From positions 1-35,992 of the forward strand of contig CAJXCW010000019.1 in NCBI GenBank assembly GCA_913051705.1: a stretch of 35,992 nucleotides of DNA, read 5' to 3'. The notes under the pieces are model-generated. The model was not told the DNA's origin, searched no databases, and worked only from the letters and a program-made list of their open reading frames with translations. Shown piece after piece: positions 728 through 35,542 of the stretch (position 1 is its first letter; every line of letters begins with the position of its first letter). This DNA comes from an uncultured bacterium. Its GTDB lineage: Bacteria; JAAXHH01. The translations under genes and the position numbers were made by a program.

Positions 728-780
728 GTGGGAGGATGGAAGGATGGAAGGAAAAAACCGTGCCCCTTCCATCCTCCCAC
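728..780 (-). terminator. Long perfect hairpin at the end of the four-gene operon
   Basis: Arms 728-743 (GTGGGAGGATGGAAGG) and 765-780 (CCTTCCATCCTCCCAC) are perfect 16-bp complements with a 21-nt loop. It begins 9 nt after the stop codon of the TIM-barrel gene. There is no T run after the stem, so it may act as an mRNA-stabilising or transcription-attenuating stem rather than a classical intrinsic terminator. A direct repeat of GGATGGAA sits in arm and loop, allowing alternative pairing. Confidence 0.6.
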
Positions 781-788
781 CTACGCCT

Positions 789-2405
789 TTACATCTCCGA
801 ATACACATACGGTCCCAGATCATCATCCTGCCCCCGATGAAAATGTTTGCCCATCAGATATTTGATTTCCAACTCCACATCTCGGACATAGATTTGTGGT
901 GTGATTCCTTTGTCCCTGTGGCGTAAGGTGATCTGAAGATTATTCGCACCGGTTACCGGCCAATGCGGTTCGTCGAGCCGGAATATGAACCAGTACCCGG
1001 AACCGGTGCGGTAGCGCGGGGCCTTCATGCGATACATTTCGTTGATCACGCGTTTCAGCTGGTCCGGTATCGGTTGCCCGTTCAAAGTGAAGGTCAGTTG
1101 ATCTGCTTCGGTCGTATTCATAATCCGGATGCGTAACAGCACGTCATGTATTCGACCGACGGCGCCCCATCGCGGCAAATCGTCTGATATGGTAAAAGGA
1201 AGATTGACGGTTTCACCTTCTTCGAGGTTGGCAGGTAATGTCATGGATAACCCGGGTTCGGTCTTCGGTGCAGCATAGCGACCGGTCTGTGTGGGGATGT
1301 AGTAATATTTATCCCGGGTCGCCATCACTTCAGGATGTGGTAATTCCCGGAGTTTTTCGTAGAAGGTGGCGTCATACGGCCAATTCCCGAACCAGTGGGC
1401 CAGATACAATCCATCAACACCCTGCGCCCAGTAATTACAGGCCGCCGCCCGGATGATTTCAATAGGGGCCTCGTGGAGCCGGTCCGAGTCAACCAGACTC
1501 TGAACGGCTGCCAGAATACGGCAGGACTTATCTTTGGCGGCCTGCACCAGCGGACGAAAATTGAGCATCTGATGAACCAGTTCGGTGCCTGAAAATCCTT
1601 GGCCGATCAACACGTCGACAATCCCTTCGTTAATCCAGGTGGATACGTCGAGCCCAATGGACAGGGAACCCGTCACACTGACCGGTATGCGGATGGCTAA
1701 TTCTCTACCTGAACCACTGGTTTTAACCGCTTCATAGACCCTTCTGATCCATGCCGTCATGACCGCACAACCGGCCTCCACCTGATCCGGATGAAAGTAA
1801 TACGGGAAGTAATTCATCTGAAGCTCAAAGCCATCAACTTCATACTTATTCAAGGTTTCTTCAATCAGGGCAAATCGCTCATCCCGCACGGCCTCCTGCA
1901 TGAAGTCCAGGCAGGTATAGCCGGGAAACGATTCATCTACATCGTCATGCGCGCCGATCTCAAGGTGGGTGTTGCCAAATCTAAAATCGGAGCAACGCAC
2001 ATCCTCTTCCCTGGGACCGCGCCCCTGTTGCACCAGCAGGGTGGGGTAGACCAGCATGCCCTTTTCGTGGGCTCTGTCACAGATGAGTTTAAGCGGGTCA
2101 CGGCCCTGCTCAATCAAATGCTTCGCGTTTTGATGCGCCCGGCGAAATATAATATGGGGCCATTGGCCCATATTGTGGCCCCACAGTTCCCCTACCTGGG
2201 TATCGTGTAACACCGTTCTTCCATCGCCCAGGCAAAAGTTGATCGCTTGCACGGGTGTGCCGAGGAGTTCATCGACCCCGGCTTCGTACTCCTCTTTCTG
2301 AATGGGCGGCTCGTACATGTAAATGAGGGGATGACGACCGTCGTGGTAGAACATGAAGTTGGGTTTGGGCATGATGGAGCCTTTCGTCGTTGCGTCCATT
2401 CGCAT
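789..2405 (-). CDS. TIM-barrel glycoside-hydrolase-like protein (family-10-like hypothetical)
   Basis: A protein of 538 residues. The first ~370 residues resemble the (beta/alpha)8 hydrolase-like proteins annotated as glycosyl hydrolase-like 10: an N-terminal strand leading into FMFYHDGRHPLIYMYEPPI, a helix-strand repeat pattern (for example LIEETLNKYEVDGFELQMNY) and a barrel end near VDGLYLAHWFG. The last ~160 residues look like a beta-sandwich. No signal peptide, so cytoplasmic. Start: ATG 2405 overlaps the sialidase stop by one base (TAATG) and has AGAAGG 6 nt upstream, which suggests translational coupling. An in-frame TTG at 2426 lacks a ribosome site; a later ATG at 2372 is possible. 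Last gene of the operon. Substrate unknown; Glu/Asp pairs in the barrel could be catalytic but I cannot assign them. Confidence 0.7.
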   Translation of the reverse strand: MRMDATTKGSIMPKPNFMFYHDGRHPLIYMYEPPIQKEEYEAGVDELLGTPVQAINFCLGDGRTVLHDTQVGELWGHNMGQWPHIIFRRAHQNAKHLIEQGRDPLKLICDRAHEKGMLVYPTLLVQQGRGPREEDVRCSDFRFGNTHLEIGAHDDVDESFPGYTCLDFMQEAVRDERFALIEETLNKYEVDGFELQMNYFPYYFHPDQVEAGCAVMTAWIRRVYEAVKTSGSGRELAIRIPVSVTGSLSIGLDVSTWINEGIVDVLIGQGFSGTELVHQMLNFRPLVQAAKDKSCRILAAVQSLVDSDRLHEAPIEIIRAAACNYWAQGVDGLYLAHWFGNWPYDATFYEKLRELPHPEVMATRDKYYYIPTQTGRYAAPKTEPGLSMTLPANLEEGETVNLPFTISDDLPRWGAVGRIHDVLLRIRIMNTTEADQLTFTLNGQPIPDQLKRVINEMYRMKAPRYRTGSGYWFIFRLDEPHWPVTGANNLQITLRHRDKGITPQIYVRDVELEIKYLMGKHFHRGQDDDLGPYVYSEM

Positions 2406-3457
2406 TACCGTCCTTCTTTGATCCAATCTATATCAAACCGGGTTAGCATCAGATGTTCATTGCGCTTTTTCTTGCCGTATTCGTAGAGACAGCCGATGGT
2501 GTGGTCCGGGAGAACAACGAGGCTGGAATATTCAGAAAAACCGGGGTGTAATGTACGCGAAAAAGCCCAGGTCCGACCACCGTCTGTGGAGTGGCGGATC
2601 GTCATATTGGTTCGGGAATCGCGGCTGGCCGGATTTGAAAACAACAGGTGGTTTTTTGCGCCTGGAATGCTGATCAGGCTGGCCTGGCAGATCGGTTCGA
2701 TCAGCACGTCGTCATGCCACTGTTCCGACCAGGTGAGGCCGCCATCTGTACTCATGGCGATCTGGCGGGTTCGTTTTTCAGGGGCGTAGTTGCGCATATT
2801 GAGCAGGACGTCGCCGTTTTCAAGTTCCGCAATGCAACACTCATTTACGAAATCTTTTAACGTCGAACCGCCCAATTGCCATGATTGTCCATGATCATCA
2901 CTGTAGATGACATGGGAATAATAGCGGTTTGTATCGGCTTCGATATGATCGCATGGGATGAGCAGACGGCCACTTGCAAGCTGTATGCCGTTGCCCGGTC
3001 CGGTCGCAAACCAGGTCCAGTCCGGGCGTTTGGTCGTAGACGTTATTTCATAAGGGGTCGACCAAGAGCGTCCGTCATCCTTGCTGACCACTACCCAGAC
3101 CGTGCGGGCGCCCTCACTGGTTTGATCGATAATCTGCGCCTCCCTGTCGGTCCCTAAATTATGGGTCATCAACAGCCAGATATCCCCGGTTTCACGATCT
3201 ACAACGGCACAGGGATTCCCACAGGTATTTTCCCCGTCGTCCCATACCATCTCATGGTTCGACCACGACCGCCCGCCATCGGTACTACGTTTGACCAGCA
3301 TATCGATGTCGCCGGTGTCGCTGCTGCTGTTTCTACGCCCTTCACAGAAAGCGAGCACCGTGCCTGCAGGAGTAACAATTAACGCGGGGATACGATAGGT
3401 ATGGTAGTCTTCATTCCCGCTGGTCCAGAGGACGGATTGTTTACAGAAGGCGGTCAT
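2405..3457 (-). CDS. GH33-type exo-sialidase / BNR-repeat glycosidase
   Basis: 350 residues, the size of a minimal six-bladed sialidase. Seen: the YRIP motif (Arg22 of the arginine triad), AFCEGRRNSSSDTGDID carrying the conserved Glu-Gly-Arg and the Asp near 47-50 expected as acid/base, five Asp-box repeats (STDGGRSW, SKDDGRSW, SDDHGQSW, STDGGLTW, STDGGRTW), and near the C-terminus EYSSL followed by LYEYG, matching the Tyr/Glu nucleophile region. The family releases terminal sialic acids or related sugars; some members act on other nonulosonates or are trans-sialidases. No signal peptide is visible, so it should act on imported glycans. ATG 3457 has AAGGA 5 nt upstream. It lies 15 nt after the DUF6785 gene and overlaps the next gene, so it is within the operon. 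Confidence 0.88.
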   Translation of the reverse strand: MTAFCKQSVLWTSGNEDYHTYRIPALIVTPAGTVLAFCEGRRNSSSDTGDIDMLVKRSTDGGRSWSNHEMVWDDGENTCGNPCAVVDRETGDIWLLMTHNLGTDREAQIIDQTSEGARTVWVVVSKDDGRSWSTPYEITSTTKRPDWTWFATGPGNGIQLASGRLLIPCDHIEADTNRYYSHVIYSDDHGQSWQLGGSTLKDFVNECCIAELENGDVLLNMRNYAPEKRTRQIAMSTDGGLTWSEQWHDDVLIEPICQASLISIPGAKNHLLFSNPASRDSRTNMTIRHSTDGGRTWAFSRTLHPGFSEYSSLVVLPDHTIGCLYEYGKKKRNEHLMLTRFDIDWIKEGR

Positions 3458-3472
3458 AGGGTTCCTTTTTTA

Positions 3473-5428
3473 TCAATTAAAGATCACATGCCCTGTAATC
3501 CCCGTCAACCCGTCGATGATAACCCAGAGGCCGGCGCTGACGAATTCGCCGAGGATAAGGCCCAGGAAGAACGGCAGCATGGCCCGGTAGATGTTGACGC
3601 CCCCGTATTTCAGAATCAACCCTTTGAGCATCCAGGCCATGAAGATGGAAAACCAGCCAGCGGCCAGCGGGGCGGACGCCCCGACGGGAAATCCGATGAA
3701 ATGAAGCGGCCACCAGATAAAAGTCTGTCGCATGATCATCAGCAGCCACATGATGCCACCGCCCATACCAAAGAAAAACCATCGGCCTGTCGGATCAGAG
3801 GTGGCGTTAATCGTGGCGGCATAATAGTTAAATCGATTCTGCTGAAGTTCACCGAAGAAATGCCAGTTGAGGTTGATGCCCCCGTATTCGTAAGCCAGAT
3901 ACATCACCGCATAGATGGACCCCGCCAGACTACCTATCACGGCCAGGCCCATCGCCACAGTCAACCGGAGCTGATTTTTGATCCGTGCCGAGTCGGCCAG
4001 CTTCAGGCTGTTGGCCATAGACGGCATAATGAGCGTCCTGGTGTGCGTCATCCAGAATTTGGTGAGGCCGATGCTGACCAGGTTACGGGGCCCGAGGAAA
4101 GGCCCTGTGAATCCGTGGATCATAAAATCCTGGGGGTTGAGTGTTTCGGCGAAAATGACGCCACCTTCAGCGACAATACGGGCAAACCCGATATATATGA
4201 TTAGAACCAGCCCCAGCAGGAATATGGCCAGCCACCAGGCCATGCCGATCATCATCAGCCAGCCGAGAAGAAAAAGGAGTCCCAGGCCGCCACCGATGAC
4301 AGCCAGTCGATAGGACAGACATTCATTGGAATCGTCTACAGATGGATCCCCGGTGAACGCTTTGCGGACGACGTCTTTAAGGTGACCGCGCGCCATCCAG
4401 AGGCCGAAGAGGACCAGCACGAACAGGGCGCCGAACATCTGATGTGTGCCCGGCAGGGTGGTATTTCCTGCCACATCGATACCGAACATCGCGTTGATCA
4501 AATTCTGGATTCTACTGATCAGGAAAAACAACCAGAGGCTGAAGGAGACTTCCAGACTGAGCAGATAGCCGAAGCCTAAAAGCGGAAACGACAAGTTGAT
4601 CGGCAGAACCAGTTGATTATTAAACAAGCCGATGGATTCGGTGAAATCGATCGTGGGGAAGAAGTAAATATAATTATGGATACTATTCCAACTGTTGATC
4701 ATGAAGGGAATAAGAAATCCGGTCCACATCACTTTGTTACGAAAAAACGCAGCCACGGGCGAGGTATGGGCTTCTTCTCCCAGGGCTATCATTTCCGTAG
4801 GCAGTTTGACCAGAGGAAAGACCAGCCGTTCTCGTTCGATCCATTGCTTCCTCAGAATAACGGTAATACAGAAGATGACAAAATACAGCACGAGCACGAA
4901 GCTGAGCCAGGCCGCGAGCGGGGTCACCCAATCGCCCCAGGGAATACTCCCGCCCTGCGGCAACCCTTCGAAGAAGGCCCGGATCGTATCCGGGTTTTGT
5001 GGCATCAGCCAGGATTCGAGGTTGGGTACAATCGTCTCGAACCATTTGTTTTCCGGCGTGGCGTAGTACATCGATGCCATGGCTGGTAAAAGAACCTCCG
5101 TCAGACCATAAGAAGGAATGGCTGAAGCAATGAGCGACATGATATACACCACGGCCAGCTCGCCCGGCGAGAGGGCATATCTGGGGTTTGCCACTCTGAG
5201 CAGGGTATTGATGATGCCGACGATAATTGCAAATAGAAACACCACGCCGATAGGTGTAAAATTACTCCCCAGGTAGGATCCTTTAATAATCATATTCGCG
5301 TACGGGTCGGCGACCCCGAGAATCAGTGAACAGCCCAGACCGACCAGGACAGCCCGTGGGGTGACCATCTCGTGCGGGAAGGAATGATGGAGGTTTTCGT
5401 GTTGTTTCTTCGGTTCTGCGACCGACAT
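3473..5428 (-). CDS. DUF6785/DUF6784-type polytopic membrane protein, probable transporter
   Basis: 651 residues with roughly 14 hydrophobic segments; the first begins near residue 27 and the last ends near the C-terminus. Seen: a charged cytoplasmic N-terminus, conserved-looking loops ERERLVFPLVKLPTEMI (about residue 195) and RIVAEGGVIFAETLNPQDFM (about 425), and an amphipathic middle. From family knowledge, this is the architecture of DUF6785/DUF6784 proteins found in Poribacteria, Planctomycetes and Armatimonadetes, distantly reminiscent of OPT oligopeptide transporters. Transport of a peptide or glycoconjugate is my inference. ATG 5428 has AAAGGA 6 nt upstream; 27 nt separate it from the M28/FtsX gene and 15 nt from the sialidase, indicating co-transcription. 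Confidence 0.75.
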   Translation of the reverse strand: MSVAEPKKQHENLHHSFPHEMVTPRAVLVGLGCSLILGVADPYANMIIKGSYLGSNFTPIGVVFLFAIIVGIINTLLRVANPRYALSPGELAVVYIMSLIASAIPSYGLTEVLLPAMASMYYATPENKWFETIVPNLESWLMPQNPDTIRAFFEGLPQGGSIPWGDWVTPLAAWLSFVLVLYFVIFCITVILRKQWIERERLVFPLVKLPTEMIALGEEAHTSPVAAFFRNKVMWTGFLIPFMINSWNSIHNYIYFFPTIDFTESIGLFNNQLVLPINLSFPLLGFGYLLSLEVSFSLWLFFLISRIQNLINAMFGIDVAGNTTLPGTHQMFGALFVLVLFGLWMARGHLKDVVRKAFTGDPSVDDSNECLSYRLAVIGGGLGLLFLLGWLMMIGMAWWLAIFLLGLVLIIYIGFARIVAEGGVIFAETLNPQDFMIHGFTGPFLGPRNLVSIGLTKFWMTHTRTLIMPSMANSLKLADSARIKNQLRLTVAMGLAVIGSLAGSIYAVMYLAYEYGGINLNWHFFGELQQNRFNYYAATINATSDPTGRWFFFGMGGGIMWLLMIMRQTFIWWPLHFIGFPVGASAPLAAGWFSIFMAWMLKGLILKYGGVNIYRAMLPFFLGLILGEFVSAGLWVIIDGLTGITGHVIFN

Positions 5429-5455
5429 GGGTAGTCCTTTCGGGAAAAAACGAAT

Positions 5456-8400
5456 CTACGTCTGGTGCTGGGCTGTTGTGGTCTCATCTGTCAACAAGGG
5501 TTTATCCCCCAGCATCGCTTCTCCCTGGCTCTTAAACAATTGTTTCGCTTCCTCATCGATGGTGCGCCATATGAGAAACTGTTTACGCACGGTGTTCAGG
5601 AATCTGCGGTTGACGCGTTGCCATGAATCGACATCCCCGTTCAACCGGGTAATCTCGAGTTCGATTTGATAGGTATTGTATTCACCCAGCGGGCGGGTGG
5701 TGATGTCGATCTCTTCACTGACGCCCATATCATACGGGGCCAGCCAGGCGCGTAGATGAATGCGGTATCCCATCCCGCCTTCTATCTCAAAACAGGTCAG
5801 GCGGACCTGATCGGCATGAAACAGACCAATCGAATCTTCACCATGGGACTCGAAATAGTCATGCAGATAGGTACTCAGGCCCAACACCTCAACACCGGAC
5901 ACGGTAAACGGGAAATCGAAACGCCATACATCCCCTTCGGGATCGGGGAATTTCCATTGGCGTTCCACGTCCGGCACTGCCATCTGACTGGCTTTATGGG
6001 CGGGATACAGCGTCGACAACAGCACGACGCCCATGACCAGGATAGTAGACATCACGGCAGAGGTGGAAGAATAATTGAGCGTCAGCCCTTCCATCAGTCC
6101 CGTGGAGGTCATCAACTGCCCGAAAGATTGCCCGATCAGATAGCCGGCCATGCCGCCGATAATGGCATAGACGCAGGATTCCGCCATGAATAAGGCGCCG
6201 ATATGAGTCGGGGCCAGGCCGAGCGAACTGAAAATACTGATTTCGCGAAATCGTTCATAGACCGCGCCCATCATGGTGTTTAGAACAATTAACGCCGCCA
6301 CCAGAATGGGGATAAACAGGTTACTCATACCGGTCAGCGCGGTCAATGCAAGGGCGCTGTATACCCTGGCTTTGCCTTCAGCGCCGACAAAAACGGTCAG
6401 GCCGACACGGGGCATGAATTCATCGAGAGAGGCCATCATATCATCCACGGAAGGGAATTTGATGGCCACGGACATGATGTTGCCGTTATTCATGTTGCGG
6501 ACATCGTTATAGGGTATAAAGATGACATCTTTCGGGACCATATGTTTGAACGAAAGGATATCTGCATCTTCATCCGTTTGTCGGGTAGTTGTGCGTATGG
6601 CGCCACGGAGTTCGGCGCTTTCAGACTTATAATCGACCGGAGTGAGGTGGCCGTCGTCCAGATCACGCCATTGGTATAATTTCTCCCCATCAATGATGCC
6701 CTTCACAAGGATAGGCCGGCCGTAGAGCATAATCTGTGCATTCCCCACTTCATCCTGCCCTATATCAAGCAGCCTGGCCAGATCGTTTGGAAGAATACAC
6801 ACGTTGCGCTCTCCCGGCTCAAACCAGGTGCCCGCTATGAGTAGGGTATCAATGCCGGATATGAGGGGCTCGTCGGGAGAAAAGCCCATAATAGCCTTTG
6901 CATAGGTCTGAAATGACTTGGCTTTAAGCTTTTCCTTGGCGCGGGAGATAGCCACGATGTCGTTGGACTGCAACGCATCGGTAATCGATTTAAACTCCGC
7001 GATCGTCGCTGAGTCGGGTACGGCGTCCTCACCACGTTCCAGTTTAATGAAAATGTTACTCCATTCTCCGGCCGGTTGATTCGCATACCAGGCGCGGGGG
7101 ATCACCGTCGCCCGGTCGTTGAACTCACTTTCAATATATCGTAATGCGGAATGTTCCAGCGGCCACCACGCATTATTGCGGATCATCATCCCCTCATACA
7201 TAGGGGCATTCGACCGGTCGATTTTATAGAACTGCAGATAGGTTTGTACGGAGGTGAACGAAATCACCGTGAACATGAGCAGAATGATCGTCGTGCAGGT
7301 CAGCCCCACACGGAGCGGTCTGTTCCGCATGTTGGAAACGCCCAGAGAAAACGCGGCAGCCAGAACACTCACCCGGCTTACATCCGTCTGGTAAATCGTC
7401 GCCCGTTCTTTGCGAACACGATTCATTTCCAGGCCGAACCGGGAAGCAAGAATCCAGGTCACGAGGGCGGCCAGCGTAAAGGTGATAAAAGATAATAATA
7501 TGATATAGGGCGTGGAAGCCAGTTCGAAGGCCGGATGAATGGCAACCAGAATGGCAAAGGAGATCAGGAAGATAGCGGTGACAGCAAGGATACGATGATT
7601 AACTTTGACGAAGCCAAAGAGAAGTCGTTCGACAAAATAAGAAAACGGCAGAATGATAAACAGGTAAAAGATGACGCCCTGCATGAGATCGTTCGCCGTG
7701 GCCGTCGCATCAGGATAGGCGCGTGATTCATAGCCCCAGGCCGCCCGGGCATACTGGATAAAATGTTCCCAGTCCAATGCGGCTCTGGCTTCTTCCGCCT
7801 GACCGAGTAATACTTCCGCTCTGGCGTGCATCTCTTCCATACGGGCGTTTTGGATGCCGGCGTCGTGCAGTTGACCTAAACGGTAATCATTGAGAGTCCA
7901 CATGTCGCGAGCCACTTTATACGGTAACTCGGACAAAATGCCTGCGCCGGATACGGGGTATCCGGTGCCCATCGGATTTTCCGGCGTCGCATTCAACAGC
8001 ACCAGACGGTTACCGAGGACGCTGGTTCCCATGAGCAGTTTAAACCGTTCTCCAGGTTCCATAAATACCGGTCCGCAGGCTTCTACATAGGACATCCAGT
8101 TGAACCAGCCGTGGTCGAGCAGCGCATGACCGAATTTATAAGGCTGCGTATCGGTGGTGCTGAGTACCGTCGCCTCTTTCATACGCGTCAGATATCGCGG
8201 GTCCACCAGGTCGAACAGATCTACGGCCTCACAGCGGAACAGCACAATCTTTTTCTCTTTCTCCACCCAGTCCTGAGTCGTAATGATCGGATACATCCCA
8301 TCGCCGAACGTACCCCGATCCGGCGCATAGATTATTTCGCCGTTGTCTTCGTCAAGGACATAGGCTTCTGTCGGCGTTCGCCTGGGGATCTGCAACTGAT

Positions 8401-10072
8401 CAAACTCCGCCCAGCCGTTTTCATCTCCCACACGAAAATACTCATTACGTACGCCCATCAACGTTTTTTCATTACGGCGGGAGACGAACACCGCGTTAGG
8501 CAATGGTACGCTGGGAATGAAGCTTTTGCTCTGGTCGAACTCGACAGCCTGCACGCGCAGCGTGCCCAGTCCGTCGGGCAGATTCATCTTGAAATCCGGC
8601 ATCAATGCAGGGTCATTAGCCGCATCATAGATCAGGCAGGCGGTTAATTTAGTCTGGGTAACGATATTTTTGTAATTTACCTTTTCAGGAAGATCCAGCG
8701 GCGTATCGACCAGGTTTCTCTGGTCAAATACGGTGGCCAGATAGATGGCTGGAAATCCAGCCCAGAATACCAGCTCTCCATCGGCCCCCCACTTCCCTGG
8801 AAACCAGCTATCCCATTTGATGCCGCTGATGGGTGAGATGGCATTGATGAACATATCGGGATAATATCCCAGCGCTGCTGTAGCCCCGGCGGCATATCTC
8901 ATAAACGCATTACCGAACGGCGTGAAAAACCGTTGCTTGTCGAAGGCGTCCCCCGTATACAGCCAGCCGGTAAACGATACCCCCATCTGATTGCGTTGCC
9001 CGGAGATATCCAGGCCGATATATAGTTTCATATCAAGCGGCTCAGGCACCCTGGCCGCCATCACGGAGTTTTTTCGTATATGGCGTTGGATAAAGGCATT
9101 GATGCCTGCGGTCGCCATATAATGTCCGCTGGTGGCAAGGAAATAAACCGTTCGCGAAGGGGGGTTACGGGCGATCATCCGGGCTATTTCCATCAGACTG
9201 GCGATACCGGCGGCCTGGTTCGCGCCCGGTGAGATCGCAGGGACGACCGAGATGGCGTCGTAGTGCGAGCCGATCACGATAATTTCGTCTTTCAATTCAG
9301 CGTGGGTGCCGGGGATCACACCGATCACATTCTGAGATTCCGTGCGGCGCCAGGTCATCCGGGCTTTGGCGCGAAGGCGAATCTCTTCGCCGCGTTCAAT
9401 ACGGTCGAGGAGCATTCGGGCCGTAGTGCTGGGAACATAAAACCGGGGGACATCCACCGGACTCTGTAAGAATTTTTCTTCTGCCTGCTGGCGCACGGTC
9501 CATTCCGGCTCAATAAAATAAACAGCCCGGGCGCCCAACTCCGCCGCGTTGAGCCAGTTGACGCCGGTATTAAAATCCATCAGCACAAAATTATTTTCAA
9601 TGATCTTACCATTGAAATCTTTGAATTCACCCTTACCTACATAATGCAGAATTCCCTCTACCCCTTCCCGTGGTAACGTGGGTGTGCGGACCAGATTGGG
9701 CCACAGGCAGTGTACAGGGAAAGTCTCGCCGGTAGTCAGCAGACGAATGGAAGCGCCCTCATCGATAGGTGACGCCCCGGTAAACGGCTCATAGGCCACC
9801 CGCTGTAAACCGGCCTGACGAAACTGATCTGCAATATAGGCCGCAGCGGAATCTTCACCGGGATAGCCGATGACACGAGAGCCCAGGCTGGAAAAGTATT
9901 CGATGGTATCGCGAATTCGGGAAGAATCGATATGCGAAGCGATATAACGGTAGTCGGCTGTTTGAACAGATTCTGTGCGTAGATTCCGGTCATCAGCGGT
10001 GCAGGCGGTGAGCGATAGATATATAAGGAACAGTACTGCCGAAATGGTTGTCCTGAAACGGATAGATTTCAC
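5456..10072 (-). CDS. Lipoprotein: degenerate M28 peptidase domain fused to an FtsX-type permease
   Basis: 1538 residues. Order: lipoprotein signal with lipobox LTAC (Cys24); an M28-like domain (about 40-330) including a PA-like insert; a soluble region with no domain I recognise (to about 790); several membrane helices (about 795-945); an extracytoplasmic MacB-core-like domain (about 945-1240); an FtsX helix bundle (about 1240-1370) with AVYERFREISIFSSLGL; and a soluble C-terminal tail of about 165 residues. M28 metal residues are altered: SHYDAIS keeps His270 and Asp272, but the usual GADDN reads GANQA and the usual EE-G reads HYM. It may therefore bind substrate without hydrolysing it, or use other ligands. 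No MacB-type ATPase is nearby. Start: GTG 10072 with AAAGG 7 nt upstream gives a clean lipoprotein signal; a TTG at 10099 lacks a ribosome site. First gene of the operon. Confidence 0.82.
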   Translation of the reverse strand: MKSIRFRTTISAVLFLIYLSLTACTADDRNLRTESVQTADYRYIASHIDSSRIRDTIEYFSSLGSRVIGYPGEDSAAAYIADQFRQAGLQRVAYEPFTGASPIDEGASIRLLTTGETFPVHCLWPNLVRTPTLPREGVEGILHYVGKGEFKDFNGKIIENNFVLMDFNTGVNWLNAAELGARAVYFIEPEWTVRQQAEEKFLQSPVDVPRFYVPSTTARMLLDRIERGEEIRLRAKARMTWRRTESQNVIGVIPGTHAELKDEIIVIGSHYDAISVVPAISPGANQAAGIASLMEIARMIARNPPSRTVYFLATSGHYMATAGINAFIQRHIRKNSVMAARVPEPLDMKLYIGLDISGQRNQMGVSFTGWLYTGDAFDKQRFFTPFGNAFMRYAAGATAALGYYPDMFINAISPISGIKWDSWFPGKWGADGELVFWAGFPAIYLATVFDQRNLVDTPLDLPEKVNYKNIVTQTKLTACLIYDAANDPALMPDFKMNLPDGLGTLRVQAVEFDQSKSFIPSVPLPNAVFVSRRNEKTLMGVRNEYFRVGDENGWAEFDQLQIPRRTPTEAYVLDEDNGEIIYAPDRGTFGDGMYPIITTQDWVEKEKKIVLFRCEAVDLFDLVDPRYLTRMKEATVLSTTDTQPYKFGHALLDHGWFNWMSYVEACGPVFMEPGERFKLLMGTSVLGNRLVLLNATPENPMGTGYPVSGAGILSELPYKVARDMWTLNDYRLGQLHDAGIQNARMEEMHARAEVLLGQAEEARAALDWEHFIQYARAAWGYESRAYPDATATANDLMQGVIFYLFIILPFSYFVERLLFGFVKVNHRILAVTAIFLISFAILVAIHPAFELASTPYIILLSFITFTLAALVTWILASRFGLEMNRVRKERATIYQTDVSRVSVLAAAFSLGVSNMRNRPLRVGLTCTTIILLMFTVISFTSVQTYLQFYKIDRSNAPMYEGMMIRNNAWWPLEHSALRYIESEFNDRATVIPRAWYANQPAGEWSNIFIKLERGEDAVPDSATIAEFKSITDALQSNDIVAISRAKEKLKAKSFQTYAKAIMGFSPDEPLISGIDTLLIAGTWFEPGERNVCILPNDLARLLDIGQDEVGNAQIMLYGRPILVKGIIDGEKLYQWRDLDDGHLTPVDYKSESAELRGAIRTTTRQTDEDADILSFKHMVPKDVIFIPYNDVRNMNNGNIMSVAIKFPSVDDMMASLDEFMPRVGLTVFVGAEGKARVYSALALTALTGMSNLFIPILVAALIVLNTMMGAVYERFREISIFSSLGLAPTHIGALFMAESCVYAIIGGMAGYLIGQSFGQLMTSTGLMEGLTLNYSSTSAVMSTILVMGVVLLSTLYPAHKASQMAVPDVERQWKFPDPEGDVWRFDFPFTVSGVEVLGLSTYLHDYFESHGEDSIGLFHADQVRLTCFEIEGGMGYRIHLRAWLAPYDMGVSEEIDITTRPLGEYNTYQIELEITRLNGDVDSWQRVNRRFLNTVRKQFLIWRTIDEEAKQLFKSQGEAMLGDKPLLTDETTTAQHQT

Positions 10073-10184
10073 AGGCAGGCCTTTATATATTATCCACAAA
10101 CGCCCACTACTCCAGCATCCGGAGATCGGGAGAATAAGAAAAGGAGTATAAAGAGGATGGAGGCTTCGTTGCCGATATTAAAAC

Positions 10185-10212
10185 AGTATATCTCCCGGTA
10201 AAACGATGTCAA
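10185..10212 (-). promoter_or_regulatory. Sigma-70-type promoter of the M28/FtsX operon
   Basis: On the minus strand, TTGACA (10207-10212), a 16-nt spacer and TATACT (10185-10190). Transcription would start near 10178, leaving a leader of about 105 nt before GTG 10072. The leader is purine/pyrimidine biased but I see no riboswitch fold. Confidence 0.6.
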
Positions 10213-18544: not shown

Positions 18545-19429
18545 TTATATCAATCCCAACGTCTCTAGCGCTTTACTTATCGCTGTCCGCTGTTCCTCTG
18601 TGAGAGGTAATCCTGGCGGTCGTGGATCTCCGCAGTCAATCCCTAATCGCTCGCTGACCGCGAATTTCATTGTAGCGTGGAATCCCCCTCCGCAGGCGCG
18701 AAGGACTTCAATCACATTACTCGCCTCGTCCTGCGCCGCTTCTGCACGTTTGATATCCCCATCCTGATAGGCTTGCCAGATCGCTACCCACCGTTCCGGA
18801 GCCAGAATCGGGGGGCCATCGACACAGCCTGTAGCGCCATAGGTCATCGCAGGTAACATCAACTGATTGTTACCGATCAAGCAGCACAACCCCATTTTTG
18901 CAAATATCCGCACGTTAGAAAACACTTGGGATGAATGCTTTAAGCCAGCTAATTGGGGCACCTTATCCTGAATCATCTGCATTAATTCGGGTGAAATGTC
19001 CACACCGGTTGATCCCGGTAAATTATATACAAACAGAGGCAGATCCGCCGCCGCACCTACCACGCGATAATGCTCTGCAATCTCATGGTCCGGCCGCTGG
19101 TAGAAAAAAGGAGGGACACAACAAATAGCTTCTACCCCGGCCTTTGCTGCATGTTCAGCCAGCCCGGCCGCCCGTGCTGTAGTGGCTGCGCCCACATGCA
19201 TAATGTTCTTCACACGCCCCTTAGACTGGTCTGCCACAACCTCTGCAATACGGTGGTTTTCATCATCATCCAGAAGGATACTTTCACCCGTACCCCCGGC
19301 CACCCAGAACCCATGCACCCCCGCCTGTATGTTAAATTCAATAACGTCCCGAAACGCGGCCTCATTGAATCGGCCATCCGATGTCATCGGGGTAATAACT
19401 GCTGGAAATATGCCTTGAAATACAGTCAT
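18545..19429 (-). CDS. DapA/NanA-family aldolase (N-acetylneuraminate lyase-like)
   Basis: 294 residues, standard for this (beta/alpha)8 pyruvate-dependent Schiff-base lyase family. Seen: VAGGTGES (carboxylate-binding loop at 44-50), catalytic Tyr135 in LFVYNLPGSTG and Schiff-base Lys164 in AGLKHSSQ. The family includes dihydrodipicolinate synthase, sialic acid lyase and sugar-acid aldolases. Position in a dehydrogenase/TPP-enzyme cluster argues for a catabolic aldolase rather than lysine synthesis, and the sialidase elsewhere in the window makes sialic acid lyase possible but not proven. ATG 19429 has AAGGAGA 8 nt upstream. It is the last gene of the cluster and follows the TPP enzyme by 57 nt. 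Confidence 0.85.
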   Translation of the reverse strand: MTVFQGIFPAVITPMTSDGRFNEAAFRDVIEFNIQAGVHGFWVAGGTGESILLDDDENHRIAEVVADQSKGRVKNIMHVGAATTARAAGLAEHAAKAGVEAICCVPPFFYQRPDHEIAEHYRVVGAAADLPLFVYNLPGSTGVDISPELMQMIQDKVPQLAGLKHSSQVFSNVRIFAKMGLCCLIGNNQLMLPAMTYGATGCVDGPPILAPERWVAIWQAYQDGDIKRAEAAQDEASNVIEVLRACGGGFHATMKFAVSERLGIDCGDPRPPGLPLTEEQRTAISKALETLGLI

Positions 19430-19486
19430 GAATCCGATCTCCTTAATGTCTAGTAAAGTAAACCAACCTGCAAACGGACTAAGATT

Positions 19487-21160
19487 TCACTCAGGTACAA
19501 ACGCTACAGGCGCCATCGCTTCAATGTCACTCGCCACATCCACCACCACAGGCCTGTTCGCCTCTATGGCCTGTTCCAATGCGCTGGAAATATCCGACGG
19601 GTTTTCTACACGAATTCCAAGGCAGCCCATAGACCGGGCGACCTCGGCGAAATTAACATCCTCAAAGACCCATAAATCATCCGGGCTACCCGAGTCCTGA
19701 TTCTGATAGATCTTGTCAAACCCATCCTTACATTGGTTGAAGGATCGATTGTTGTTCACCACCGTCACCGTATTGATCCCAAATCGGGCTGCCGTTTCCA
19801 ACTCACTGAGATGGTACCAGAATCCACCGTCACCCGTGAAACAAATCACCGGTCTGTCCGGTTCAGCGCACTTGGCGCCCATCGCAGCAGGAAACCCCCA
19901 GCCCAGAGAACCGGCGCAGCGCAGGTAGGTCTGACCGGGTTGCGTCAGTTCGATCATGGTTCCCGTCCACATACCTGCATGTCCCGTGTCCGAGACGATG
20001 ACCGCGTCGGAGGGCAGCATATGCTCTATTTCCCGGCAGAGTCGTTCAGGGCGAATAGGGACAGCATCGGATTGTAACAACGGTTCGAACCCCTCCCGCC
20101 AGCGTTGGACCAATGCCTGCACACGTCCTGTCCATACCGTGTTCGGGGCTTTTGGTTCAAGGACATCGATCAGTCGTTGCATAGTGACTTTCGCATCGCC
20201 AAGCAGACCCACCTCGGTCGGATAATTCCGTCCTATTTCTGTAGGGTCGATATTGACCTGTATGGTTCGAGCGCCCGGTTTCGGCACCTGCCAGAATTGG
20301 GTCACCTGCCCACCTGTTTGACTGCCGATATAGACCACCAGATCCGCCTCCGTCACGATCTCATTGGCACATTTTCTGGAATAAGCGCCCACGACACCTG
20401 CTGAGAGAGGATGATCTTCAGGGATCGCCCCTTTGCTGTTGAGCGAAGTGGCAACAGGGATGGATAGCATCTCCGCCAATTTGACCACCTCCGCCTGCGC
20501 TCCCGAGGCCGTCACACCGCCGCCGGCAACCAGAACAGGCCGTTCTGCCTTAGCGATCAGCGCGGCGGCTTCCCGCACGCGATTTCCTTCCGGTTCGGGC
20601 CGAAAGGCGGGATAACACGTAAAGGGGTCTTCGACGATCACCTCAAGGTCGGCTTCAGCCGCTGCGCCTTCGCCGGCAAATCCCATGCAATCCAGATGGA
20701 CCGGTCCCGGTGCCCCTGAAGTAGCCTCTCGAAACGCCTGGCGGAGTATAAGAGGCAGATCCTCGACCGTATCGACATACGCGTTGAATTTGGTTACCGG
20801 GTCATAAAGGGGTCGGTGGTCGATTTCCTGATAGGCGTGACGATACAGATACATCGGCGTCCATCGACCCGTCATGGCAATCACGGGCGACACCGCCAGG
20901 TAGGCGTCCTGAAGTCCCGCAGCCAGGTTGGCCGCCCCCACAGATTGAGCCATGGCGATGCCCGGCCTGTGCGAAACACGCGCATAGCCATCCGCCATAT
21001 ACGCGGCGGCCTTTTCGGAATGACACCTCACCCGCTTGATCCCTAGTTTTTCCATCTCCATCAGGGCGCCGTCAAGAATATAGGGCACATGAAATACGGA
21101 GGTAACCCCATACCCGTGGAAGGTCTCCGCTATGAATTTAGAACCTGTCATCTTCGGCAA
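19487..21160 (-). CDS. Thiamine-diphosphate enzyme, acetolactate-synthase-like
   Basis: 557 residues with the three domains of the acetohydroxyacid synthase/benzoylformate decarboxylase superfamily: the PYR domain with catalytic Glu49 (CHSEKAAAYMADGYAR), the central domain (about 190-330, PVLVAGGGV) and the PP domain, whose TPP/Mg motif starts GDGGFWYHLSELETAARFG near residue 440 and ends in VVNNN. It binds ThDP and acts on a 2-oxoacid, but the substrate is not fixed; the standard regulatory subunit gene (ilvN) is absent, so this is probably a catabolic oxoacid lyase or decarboxylase. Start: TTG 21160 is favoured because GGAGGA lies 7 nt upstream; an ATG three codons later has no well-placed site. 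It follows the dehydrogenase gene by 50 nt. Confidence 0.85.
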   Translation of the reverse strand: MPKMTGSKFIAETFHGYGVTSVFHVPYILDGALMEMEKLGIKRVRCHSEKAAAYMADGYARVSHRPGIAMAQSVGAANLAAGLQDAYLAVSPVIAMTGRWTPMYLYRHAYQEIDHRPLYDPVTKFNAYVDTVEDLPLILRQAFREATSGAPGPVHLDCMGFAGEGAAAEADLEVIVEDPFTCYPAFRPEPEGNRVREAAALIAKAERPVLVAGGGVTASGAQAEVVKLAEMLSIPVATSLNSKGAIPEDHPLSAGVVGAYSRKCANEIVTEADLVVYIGSQTGGQVTQFWQVPKPGARTIQVNIDPTEIGRNYPTEVGLLGDAKVTMQRLIDVLEPKAPNTVWTGRVQALVQRWREGFEPLLQSDAVPIRPERLCREIEHMLPSDAVIVSDTGHAGMWTGTMIELTQPGQTYLRCAGSLGWGFPAAMGAKCAEPDRPVICFTGDGGFWYHLSELETAARFGINTVTVVNNNRSFNQCKDGFDKIYQNQDSGSPDDLWVFEDVNFAEVARSMGCLGIRVENPSDISSALEQAIEANRPVVVDVASDIEAMAPVAFVPE

Positions 21161-21210
21161 GAAATGATCCTCCGGTTTCTGTTCTTTTAATTTATTCCTG
21201 GTTAAATCCC

Positions 21211-22257
21211 TTACCCCATATCCGCTTTGACCGCAATCTTAATCGCGTCCTTACCATCCAGATGATACCCTCTATGTAGTGCATTTATCCCTTCCGATAC
21301 CCGATCCAGAGGAATAGTGTGGCTGACAAAATCATCGAAGAGATCGGCATGTTTTTCGAGCATCCTCAGAGATCGGAGAAAGTGCTGCGTTTCAAAACCC
21401 CAGGCGGCTTCGAGACGCAGGTTCTTACGCAGGAGCATCTGGTTGGGATTGCATTCGAACGTCCCCGAATCCACAAAATGACCGTATTCTACGTACGTAC
21501 CGCTATGCCTGAGATAATCCAGCCCTTCGACGATAGCCGCCGGATTCCCGGCACATTCGAAGACCACATCGGCGCCCAGATTCTGAGGCGTGTTTTCCCG
21601 GACGATCCGCTTTCTCTCCTCCGGGTCTGGCACATCGGCGATGTTGATCGTCAGATCCGCACCGAACTTCTCCGCCATCTCAAGTCGACCACGCGGCCCC
21701 CCGACACTGATGACACGACCTGCGCCGGAGAGTCGAGCCCAATTCAATACAAGCAAGCCGATAGGCCCCGAACCCTGAACCACCACGGTATCGCCGAATT
21801 GAATCTTAGCCCGGGTGGCGCAATGCACCGCACAGGCAGATGGTTCGGTCAGTACTGCAACTTCGGTGGGCAGGTCGGTTTTAAGGAATATGGTCTTCGG
21901 ATGCCATAGATAGATGTATTCGCCGAAGCCGCCCCGCAGATACGGTTGCTCTTCGGAGGGCACAAACCCGTATCCTACGTTGGGTGAGAGAACAATACGA
22001 TCCCCTTCCTTAACAGGATTATCCAGATAATCCTTCTCAACACCTGCGCCCAATGTATCAATGACACCGACATTCTCATGCCCGAGGATAATATCATGCT
22101 CCAGACGCTGAAACTCCCAGTTGTGCAGATCTGTACCGCAGATGCCCGCCAGTTCCTGTTTAACCAGTAACGTACCCGGCTCGGGTACAGGCACAGGATA
22201 TTCACGCATTTCGAACGCCTTCCCTACCATTACAGATGCACGTCCTGATCGGCTCAT
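21211..22257 (-). CDS. Zinc-type medium-chain dehydrogenase, no structural zinc site
   Basis: 348 residues. Seen: the catalytic zinc Cys in GICGTDLHNWEF, the GHENVGV block with the zinc-binding His-Glu, the Rossmann motif VVQGSGPIGLLVLNWARL and the C-terminal IKIAVK. The usual four-Cys structural zinc loop (around residues 95-110) is replaced by SPNVGYGFVPSEEQPYLRGG, so structural zinc is lost. It oxidises an alcohol or polyol with NAD(P). ATG 22257 has AAGGAGA 6 nt upstream. It lies 56 nt from the dehydrogenase upstream and 50 nt from the TPP enzyme, so it is co-transcribed. Confidence 0.85.
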   Translation of the reverse strand: MSRSGRASVMVGKAFEMREYPVPVPEPGTLLVKQELAGICGTDLHNWEFQRLEHDIILGHENVGVIDTLGAGVEKDYLDNPVKEGDRIVLSPNVGYGFVPSEEQPYLRGGFGEYIYLWHPKTIFLKTDLPTEVAVLTEPSACAVHCATRAKIQFGDTVVVQGSGPIGLLVLNWARLSGAGRVISVGGPRGRLEMAEKFGADLTINIADVPDPEERKRIVRENTPQNLGADVVFECAGNPAAIVEGLDYLRHSGTYVEYGHFVDSGTFECNPNQMLLRKNLRLEAAWGFETQHFLRSLRMLEKHADLFDDFVSHTIPLDRVSEGINALHRGYHLDGKDAIKIAVKADMG

Positions 22258-22313
22258 GACACATCTCCTTAATGAGAAGAAATCTAAACAGTTCTTTTTA
22301 TTAATTCAAAAAC

Positions 22314-23360
22314 TCAATGTTCATCCTGCACCACATGCACCTTGACCGCCCCTGAAGATTTGTCCGCTGCTATCCTGAACGCCTCTTTAATATCCTCCAG
22401 AGGATATCGATGCGTAACCAGTTTGGTGAAGGGGATCCGGCCGGCAATGATCAAATCGATGGCAGCCTGGAAGTCGGTCTGCATATGGCTGAAACCGTAA
22501 CAGTTGGAGCCGGTAATGATCGCTTCAGACCATACGATGCGGCTTAAATTAACTTCGAGGTCTTCGAAATAGCCCGCGACCAGTACGACCGTTCCTCGCT
22601 TCCGTACAATGGTGGTCGCCTCGTTGAAAGCCCGGGCGCCGCCTATGGTCTCGATCACGACATCCATCCCCGATCCGCTGGTAAGGTCCTGAACGGAATC
22701 CGGTACATCATCCTGAGTGATGTCGATGATATGATCGGCGCCGAGATCGTTGGCCAGACGGGCTTGATGCGGATATTTAACGGTGATCAGGGTTTCTTTC
22801 ACACCGATGGCCTTAGCGACGGCCAGACAGAGTTGCCCGATCGTCCCACCGCCTATAATCGCTACCCGGTCTTGATAGGTCGCCCCGGACTGGGCTAAGG
22901 CGCGGTGTGCTACAGCCAGGGGTTCTACCAGCGTGCCCTCCTCAAAGGTCATATCATCAGGAAGTGGGTAGAGGCTGGACACATGGACGGTGGTGTATTC
23001 CGCAAAACCGCCGTGTGAGCCGTGGGCGAACCACTTACGCTCCAGACAGTGATTGTATAATCCTTTCCTGCAATAAAGACAGACGCCGCAATGGGAAAAA
23101 CATTCCATGGTCACCAGATCACCGATTTGGAATCCGGTCACACCCGCCCCGATCTCAGCCACCGTCCCACACACCTCGTGTCCAGCGGCGACATCGAGAT
23201 CCGGTTTCCACTCGCCGAAGTAATTATGCAGGTCACTGCCGCAGATCCCTGTACATCGCGTGTTCAGGGTCAGGTATCCGGGTTCGGGTGGTTTATAGTC
23301 GACATCCTGGATCTGAATTTCACGAATATCGGTATAAAGAGCCGCTTTCATAGAAGCCAT
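22314..23360 (-). CDS. Zinc-dependent sorbitol/threonine-dehydrogenase-like MDR enzyme
   Basis: 348 residues from the chosen start. Seen: CTGICGSDLHNYFG (catalytic Cys), AGHEVCG (His-Glu), the intact structural zinc Cys cluster CGVCLYCRKGLYNHC, VEPLAVAHRAL, and the NAD-binding AIIGGGTIGQLCLAVAKA. It resembles sorbitol, threonine or butanediol dehydrogenases acting on secondary alcohols. Start: several ATGs (23375, 23369, 23360, 23351) are in frame; ATG 23360 has GGGGA 8 nt upstream and is preferred. First gene of the tight dehydrogenase-TPP-aldolase cluster; its promoter may lie in the inverted-repeat element upstream. Confidence 0.85.
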   Translation of the reverse strand: MASMKAALYTDIREIQIQDVDYKPPEPGYLTLNTRCTGICGSDLHNYFGEWKPDLDVAAGHEVCGTVAEIGAGVTGFQIGDLVTMECFSHCGVCLYCRKGLYNHCLERKWFAHGSHGGFAEYTTVHVSSLYPLPDDMTFEEGTLVEPLAVAHRALAQSGATYQDRVAIIGGGTIGQLCLAVAKAIGVKETLITVKYPHQARLANDLGADHIIDITQDDVPDSVQDLTSGSGMDVVIETIGGARAFNEATTIVRKRGTVVLVAGYFEDLEVNLSRIVWSEAIITGSNCYGFSHMQTDFQAAIDLIIAGRIPFTKLVTHRYPLEDIKEAFRIAADKSSGAVKVHVVQDEH

Positions 23361-23389
23361 ATAAATCATCCCCATTAATATGGTTTGGT

Positions 23390-34417: not shown

Positions 34418-35542
34418 TCACATTCGTCCATCCCGCAGGATACGGGTACACATCAACCTTCTGGGAAAGACACGGACATCACGATGAGAATCCTGGAACT
34501 CAAACTTTCCCTCTTGTAATTCGAACACGGCGATATCTGCGAAAGCACCGACGCGCAGGGTACCCAGGTCGGGGCGACCAATCACCCGAGCCGGAATGGA
34601 TGTTGTACTGGCGACAACATTGTCTATCGGCATCCCGAGGTTAAGCATCTTCGACATCGTCGTCGGCAGGTCGAACACCGGTCCGTGAACATTGGATGTA
34701 TAGAGATCCGTACTGATCACGTCGGGGAAAAATCCCCGTTCAAACGCCGCCTGCGCCACATCAAATTTGAAACTGCCCGCGCCGTGGCCGACATCCATCA
34801 CAATTCCGCGTTTCTGGCCTTCGATCACCTCTGGCCAGACCGCCCGATGGTCGTCCAGAATACCGTGGCCGTGGCCGTGATACGTATGGGTAATGATGTC
34901 ACCCGGCCGAAGTAAATCCATGATGCCGCCCAGCGAACAGGGCGTATTGCCGACATGGACCATCACCGGAAGATTGAGCTGCGCCGCAGCCTCAACCGCC
35001 AGCCGCAGTGGGTCGAGCCCATTGTTTCCAATGAACCTGAGGCCCAGGCGGACTTTCACGCCGACCATCAGATCCCGGTTATCAGCGATGGAGGCAACGG
35101 TCCTGTCCACATTAATAAACTTCAAGCTTTCGCATTCAGGCGTGCCGGCTGTTGGGATCCCGATAAGAGAAATGTTTGAAAATCCCAGCACCCCTGTCTT
35201 CGACGGCTCCGCTACATGCCGACGGAATGAGCCCATGCTCGGCCAGCTTGAACTACCAGCATCCACAATCGTAGTGACACCGGCCTGTGGGCAGACATCG
35301 TCCGGCACCAGGCCGATATCGGTAAATCCCCAGCAGATGTGGGTATGCAGATCTATCAGACCGGGGAATACATACTGTCCGGTAACATCTATAGTAGTCG
35401 CGCCCTCCACCGGTAGATCCGTCCCCACGGCGGCAATATACCCGTCTCGAACTGCGACGTCGCCGACCGCATGTAAGGACTGTGCCGGATCAATGACGGT
35501 CCCCCCCTTCAACAGCAAAGAACTCCCCGTCGACATCTCCAT
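34418..35542 (-). CDS. Amidohydrolase/deacetylase family metallohydrolase
   Basis: 374 residues of the amidohydrolase superfamily. Binuclear metal residues are visible: His66-x-His68 (PGLIDLHTHI), Lys163 as the carboxylated lysine (VGVKVRLG), His196 (VMVHVGN), His219 (IITHTYHGHG) and Asp279 (ISTDLYTSN), with the composite N-/C-terminal beta-sandwich (LLLKGGTVIDPAQ and GTLRVGAFADIAVFEL). Closest in pattern to dihydroorotase-like amidohydrolase/deacetylase enzymes that cleave N-acyl or cyclic amide bonds; exact substrate unknown. No signal peptide. ATG 35542 has GAAGGAG 6 nt upstream. An inverted repeat at 35650-35673 lies in its upstream region. It is followed at once by the isochorismatase remnant. 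Confidence 0.9.
   Translation of the reverse strand: MEMSTGSSLLLKGGTVIDPAQSLHAVGDVAVRDGYIAAVGTDLPVEGATTIDVTGQYVFPGLIDLHTHICWGFTDIGLVPDDVCPQAGVTTIVDAGSSSWPSMGSFRRHVAEPSKTGVLGFSNISLIGIPTAGTPECESLKFINVDRTVASIADNRDLMVGVKVRLGLRFIGNNGLDPLRLAVEAAAQLNLPVMVHVGNTPCSLGGIMDLLRPGDIITHTYHGHGHGILDDHRAVWPEVIEGQKRGIVMDVGHGAGSFKFDVAQAAFERGFFPDVISTDLYTSNVHGPVFDLPTTMSKMLNLGMPIDNVVASTTSIPARVIGRPDLGTLRVGAFADIAVFELQEGKFEFQDSHRDVRVFPRRLMCTRILRDGRM

Follow-up and report, generated by a model that had tools for sequence, protein, structure and literature searches.

Type VII ATP-binding cassette (ABC) systems, OPT proteins and GH33 sialidases have all been described. The well-studied type VII systems work periplasmically, and one of them, YbbAP-TesA, has been proposed to pass membrane compounds to its hydrolase partner (PMC12646458). 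Here, we analyzed a window of 35,992 nucleotides, one entire contig of the 5.45-Mb metagenome-assembled genome (G000) of an uncultured bacterium, in which four minus-strand genes encode, in order, a protein that joins an M28 peptidase fold to an FtsX permease (M28-FtsX), a DUF6785/DUF6784 membrane protein (hereafter DUF6785), a GH33-type sialidase and a TIM-barrel protein. We found that the first two genes belong to a pairing of M28-FtsX with OPT-like proteins that is apparently an undescribed, widespread bacterial envelope system. The searched literature, which omits most subscription journals, yielded no report of this combination, of the M28-type head or of the OPT fold in DUF6785: no paper there describes M28 and FtsX together with the OPT family, or PqqD and FtsX together with an ABC transporter, and none names DUF6785 or DUF6784.

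The M28-FtsX gene (5456-10072, minus strand) encodes 1538 amino acids with a lipobox (LTAC, Cys24) and Pfam matches to M28 (PF04389, E 7e-10) and FtsX (PF02687, E 4e-12). Its M28-fold ectodomain (about residues 43-480, positions 8633-9946) was recognized by a sequence-profile match to the aminopeptidase PDB 2ek8 (E 2.8e-9, residues 43-312), and its active-site residues were surveyed in 92 homologues. It is followed by a transthyretin (TTR)-like β-sandwich (about residues 500-615, 8228-8575), which in the AlphaFold model reaches VIA Z-scores of about 9-10 against TTR-like and similar sandwich domains, and then by extra transmembrane (TM) helices. The permease half (residues 900-1369, 5966-7375) has the type VII layout of the FtsX/MacB fold, with one TM helix, a MacB/LolC-like periplasmic domain and three further TM helices; it matches HrtB, MacB, LolC and YtrF at VIA Z 13-16 and MacB by Foldseek at E 3.7e-10. 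A C-terminal domain (residues 1382-1521, 5510-5929), delimited from the secondary structure of the model, is predicted from the topology to be cytosolic. This architecture agrees with the receptor-like permease that had been proposed in an earlier note on this DNA.

The second gene (3473-5428, minus strand) encodes a membrane protein of 651 amino acids with a Pfam match to DUF6785/DUF6784 at E 3e-134. Sequence searches for solved structures returned nothing meaningful for DUF6785 or for OPT2, the name that we give here to a second OPT-like family found beside M28-FtsX genes. The model of DUF6785 is confident (pLDDT 87.5, pTM 0.90) and matches barley YS1 (7wsr) at Z 25.0 with an rmsd of 3.8 over 550 of its 651 residues, whereas the next fold reaches only Z 5.2. 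Thus, judged from the predicted structure, DUF6785 has the OPT/YSL fold, shared over the whole chain at an identity of only 12%, and the putative transporter of the earlier note, which had suggested a structural comparison with OPT proteins, is borne out. The Pfam OPT signature, PF03169, was absent from DUF6785 at E 0.1, and we therefore speak of an OPT fold and not of a Pfam OPT member. Among OPT2 proteins, 4 of 17 match PF03169 (best E 5.5e-6), the first member that we identified falling under the curated cut-off. OPT2 and DUF6785 align end to end (hhalign probability 88.9, E 2.4e-6, 563 columns). DUF6785 is strongly expanded in G000, with about 30 matches (loci L001-L030), and the ten neighboring genes that were scanned include those for enolase-superfamily, amidase, aldehyde dehydrogenase, short-chain dehydrogenase and PhyH enzymes. 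Such neighbors would fit a family of substrate carriers, though they are no test of carriage.

A scan of GTDB genomes detected at least 519 relatives of M28-FtsX, and we read the best 80 loci, which come from Latescibacterota, Omnitrophota, Armatimonadota, TA06, Elusimicrobia and others. DUF6785 or OPT2 stands directly beside M28-FtsX, on the same strand, in 45 of the 59 loci with both flanks evaluable; the chance expectation for an OPT-like neighbor is about 1 in 100 loci, as estimated from some 30 OPT-like genes among several thousand. The upstream neighbor is DUF6785 in 18 of 63 loci, while downstream we found OPT2 in 39 and DUF6785 in 4 of 71. DUF6785 neighbors occur in several separate M28-FtsX clades and are found both upstream and downstream (FastTree, with some long branches). 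Across a set of 96 genomes, OPT2 was present in precisely the 19 that carry M28-FtsX and in none of the other 77. M28-FtsX and OPT-like proteins very probably constitute one functional module.

The earlier note had remarked on a missing ATPase. This does not hold for the genome as a whole, in which a LolD-like ATPase, a candidate partner of M28-FtsX, is encoded in trans, on contig C7, together with a short FtsX protein. M28-FtsX, OPT2, a protein that we call p296, a PqqD-domain protein, the short FtsX and the ABC ATPase form a whole cluster in G053, L163, L177, L188, L192 and L236, and most of these members, with some absent, are found at G090, L166 and L233. The cassette is detached from the M28-FtsX/OPT pair in G000 (C7; L248:5545-8505), G001 (C34) and G015 (C480), and ATPase and p296 were seen in G002, a genome of the window's family. 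The C7 ATPase carries Walker A, LSGGQ and His-loop motifs and is 76% identical to the ATPase that clusters with M28-FtsX in G053; its likeness to LolD comes from the best NCBIfam model, TIGR02211, which it matches under the cut-off. The short FtsX (220 amino acids) is without the large periplasmic loop, which suggests that it would form a heterodimer with M28-FtsX. The ATPase occurs in 18 of the 19 genomes with M28-FtsX versus 0 of 77 without it (Fisher p 1e-18); the 19 come mostly from one family, and counted by genus the figures are 7 of 8 versus 0 of 77 (Fisher p 1.6e-9). We consider it likely that the C7 cassette drives the M28-FtsX/OPT module. Locus L236, with the whole cluster, is in the genome of Chthonomonas calidirosea, a species that has cultured strains, which makes the system experimentally testable. 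In G000, the cassette is directly followed by a DUF6807 gene (L248:8517-9668, E 5e-65), and in G001 and G015 the gene after it has a similar length.

With LolCDE and MacB, the system shares the FtsX permease domain, the MacB/LolC-like ectodomain and the LolD-like ATPase; it differs in the added M28 and TTR-like head, the extra N-terminal TM helices and the C-terminal domain, and no MacA/TolC or LolA partner was seen in the cassette. With YbbAP-TesA, it shares the type VII fold with a MacB-like periplasmic domain, a LolD-family ATPase and a periplasmic part of hydrolase fold (PMC12646458). Here, however, the hydrolase fold is fused and not separate, and is of the M28 type with its canonical catalytic residues lost. 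In place of a duplicated permease, M28-FtsX probably pairs with the short FtsX, and it is linked to an OPT-like protein. We class the system as a variant of type VII ABC systems; were it a genuine ABC-OPT hybrid, it would form a new class.

In a search that covered relatives of the same family and order, only the window genome has all four genes in this order. M28-FtsX followed by DUF6785 is present also in the sister-genus genome G001, where two contigs each hold part of the M28-FtsX gene and would join at residue 1330, and DUF6785 followed by the sialidase is present in all nine genomes of a different sister genus (g3) that hold that sialidase (66-68% identity). Orthologues of the TIM-barrel protein (70-71%) in G001 and G015 are located away from the other three genes. 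Because both pairs are conserved elsewhere and the TIM-barrel orthologues stand apart, the operon is, on the evidence of gene order, two conserved pairs assembled locally and joined by one recruited gene. The earlier note had taken scattered homologues as a sign against a joint module; such scatter applies to the TIM-barrel gene and in part to the sialidase, and not to the core pair of M28-FtsX and DUF6785. That unrelated genes were merely joined in one lineage is very unlikely. The full order is indeed confined to this genome, but each of the two internal pairs is also conserved in other genomes, and M28-FtsX is paired with OPT-like genes in several phyla; for the first two genes, joining by chance is largely excluded.

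The third gene (2405-3457, minus strand) encodes 350 amino acids that match BNR_2 (E 3e-38) and sialidases of known structure (E to 7e-54). The homology to GH33 enzymes 1EUR and 6mnj extends over the domain and includes Asp boxes, the RIP motif and the complete catalytic set (R22, D47, E206, R222, R282 and Y310), comprising the Arg triad, the Glu/Tyr nucleophile pair and the acid/base Asp. It is a probable sialidase by these residues. It differs from those two enzymes in being without a signal peptide, as cytosolic sialidases are, and in its OPT-like operon partner.

The fourth gene (789-2405, minus strand; 538 amino acids) encodes a TIM-barrel protein related to GH156/GHL10, which matches EnvSia156 (6rzd) at E 4e-14 alone and at E 8.5e-35 with a three-sequence profile; the Pfam GHL10 match is sub-threshold. 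In EnvSia156, Asp14 is the base and His134 the acid, while Arg129, Arg202 and Asn346 bind the carboxylate (PMC6811678). The window protein retains the equivalent of Asp14 as D22, whereas the His134 position is not His and the equivalents of R129, R202 and N346 are L, Y and H. We considered the barrel as a second sialidase and did not assign it to GH156: the homology is clear, and the acid and substrate residues are lost. The family labels of the earlier note (M28-like/FtsX lipoprotein, DUF6785 membrane protein, sialidase, TIM-barrel protein) agree with our assignments. Its two cytoplasmic glycosidase-like enzymes are borne out by the lack of signal peptides in both, and the active-site residues of the TIM barrel have mostly diverged. 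A GH156-like paralogue elsewhere in G000 (C104; L085:1069-2610) retains all five key residues of EnvSia156 and is a better candidate than the window gene for an inverting sialidase. The window also holds a row of genes for a DHDPS-family aldolase, a thiamine pyrophosphate (TPP) enzyme and two zinc dehydrogenases (18545-23375, minus strand). The best NCBIfam model for the aldolase is N-acetylneuraminate lyase, under its cut-off, and the row could serve the catabolism of sialic acid or another sugar acid.

Fold, linkage and co-inheritance were observed as described above; complex formation, import, its direction and the substrate are what we infer from them. The operon would be a branch, specific for one substrate, of an envelope system built from modules, in which ATPase, short FtsX and M28-FtsX form a type VII mechanotransmission complex. 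ATP hydrolysis would move the M28/TTR head outside the inner membrane; the head would bind a ligand (a peptide, glycopeptide or acidic oligosaccharide) and present it to the neighboring OPT-like carrier, which would import it. In the cytosol, the GH33 enzyme would take off a nonulosonic acid at the terminus, and the barrel related to GH156 might cut a further bond. We find this explanation, an ATP-driven head serving an OPT-like carrier with cytosolic processing, the best as a whole, and put its chances just short of even. Taken by itself, import by the OPT-like protein is moderately likely, and it is plausible that acidic glycans are imported and then trimmed in the cytosol. In sponge-associated bacteria, an enrichment in GH33 has been reported, and Latescibacteria are among those reported to be enriched in glycosidases (PMC8163846). 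An acidic glycan, sialylated or similar, would therefore be a reasonable guess. We propose such a glycan or glycopeptide as the substrate tentatively, with somewhat more doubt than belief.

Several observations weigh against the proposed mechanism. DUF6785 and the sialidase stand together in the g3 genomes without an adjacent M28-FtsX gene. Among the evaluable M28-FtsX loci, 14 of 59 are without a directly adjoining OPT-like gene, and these include the subgroup nearest to the window copy (G000:C9, L160 and L161). G000 holds only about 5 copies of M28-FtsX for its some 30 DUF6785 proteins, so that most of the latter are without a nearby M28-FtsX partner. Last, the substrate-binding residues of GH156 are lost from the TIM barrel.

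An alternative is the uptake of peptides or metallophores, with the head as receptor, the OPT-like partner as a carrier of peptides or metal chelates like YS1, and the glycosidase-like genes as co-regulated passengers. A receptor with an M28 fold exists in the transferrin receptor, and the M28-fold heads here are without a canonical catalytic site. The nearest solved fold to DUF6785 is an Fe(III)-phytosiderophore carrier, YS1; PqqD, a peptide-binding domain, is part of the cassette; and glycosidases are absent at the other M28-FtsX loci that we read. However, a fold shared at 12% identity is uninformative on the substrate, and the linkage of DUF6785 with the sialidase in nine genomes that do not place M28-FtsX beside them also speaks against this reading. 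We regard this alternative as unlikely.

Similarly unlikely is a role in export or lipid handling, in which the type VII permease would lift a lipid-linked or peptide product from the inner membrane for the OPT-like protein to flip or export, comparable to LolCDE, MacB and YbbAP-TesA. The periplasmic-side action of type VII systems and the precedent of YbbAP-TesA speak for it (PMC12646458). The type VII fold is also in its favor, and PqqD would suit a peptide product. Yet cytosolic glycosidases encoded in the operon point to an inward flow, the cassette is without biosynthetic genes, and OPT proteins are known as importers.

The residues of the M28 domain bear on a further alternative, that, with a rewired site, it works as a hydrolase and trims the substrate before import. 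D272 and H317 are invariant in the 92 homologues, D355 is kept in 88 and E433 in 85, and the bridging position is acidic (E or D) in 79, so that a different ligand or metal site is possible. In contrast, the catalytic Glu is replaced by His in 92 of 92 and the second Glu ligand by F, H or Y in 90, while the His of the HxD motif, retained in the window protein, is Y or F in 84. The co-catalytic zinc ligands and catalytic Glu of M28 peptidases are thus not preserved as a set across the survey. The canonical peptidase site is gone; the peptidase-like ectodomain is probably inactive and therefore probably no trimming peptidase. We dropped an active M28 peptidase as the default and hold the altered-site variant to be quite improbable.

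Returning to the ATP-driven head and OPT-like carrier, DUF6785/DUF6784 gain a fold and a partner, and M28-FtsX, OPT2, p296, PqqD-domain protein, short FtsX and LolD-like ATPase are defined as a gene set co-inherited in several little-studied phyla. If the ABC motor indeed acts on the OPT carrier, this would couple primary to secondary transport; to our knowledge, coupling of such kind is known for neither type VII ABC systems nor the OPT family. It is possible, though rather doubtful, that this represents an uptake machine of a new class. A type VII ABC motor whose receptor head has an enzyme fold would load or gate, by mechanical action, a secondary carrier of the OPT fold; each cell would have several head-carrier pairs that share one ATPase cassette and are each connected to cytosolic enzymes of their own.

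The operon layout, spacings and promoter reported in the earlier note were confirmed. The four open reading frames are separated by exactly 27, 15 and -1 nt. The first starts with GTG at 10072, with an in-frame TTG upstream at 10099, and the likeliest start of the last is the ATG at 2405, whose A doubles as the final base of the sialidase TAA stop. Purine-rich stretches resembling Shine-Dalgarno sequences precede the starts of the second, third and fourth genes. Upstream of the first gene lies a sigma-70-like promoter, TTGACA-N16-TATACT (10185-10212, minus strand), which matches 11 of 12 consensus positions; sites of this grade are expected by chance at about 0.17 per 12.4 kb, counting both strands. 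A single transcript for the four genes is likely on this arrangement. The long GC-rich hairpin at 728-780 (minus strand), taken earlier as terminal, is far stronger than expected by chance (the folded region reaches -45.8 kcal/mol, with z = -5.2 and no fold as strong among 200 shuffles), while its role as terminator proved ambiguous. Because a clean U-tract is absent behind the stem and the region (700-790) resembles seven other sites in the genome (C147 at 78% over 71 nt, the rest shorter), it could be either a repeat element or a terminator. We set aside the reading as a plain terminator, still possible, for this resemblance.

A match to the PADLOC model CARF_LolE_TM (PDLC01991, E 4e-56) covers residues 797-1502 of M28-FtsX (5567-7684), with a weaker one to CARF_Beta-galactosidase_LolE_TM; the model carries a CARF label, and no CARF domain was identified here. 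Elsewhere, the permease half may be joined to other sensor or enzyme domains. We rejected an anti-phage system, as PADLOC gave no match for DUF6785, the sialidase, the TIM-barrel protein, p296, the PqqD-domain protein or OPT2, and only the two FtsX proteins matched CARF_LolE_TM models. An M28-FtsX relative of 2426 amino acids in G054 (L122:4077-11357) has a head with LysM and long insertions. The window further encodes an amidohydrolase/deacetylase (34418-35542, minus strand; PRK09237, E 2e-126), which is 38% identical to an amidohydrolase located between M28-FtsX and OPT2 at G012:C184 (L134), and contig C105 of G000 likewise has an amidohydrolase between these two genes.

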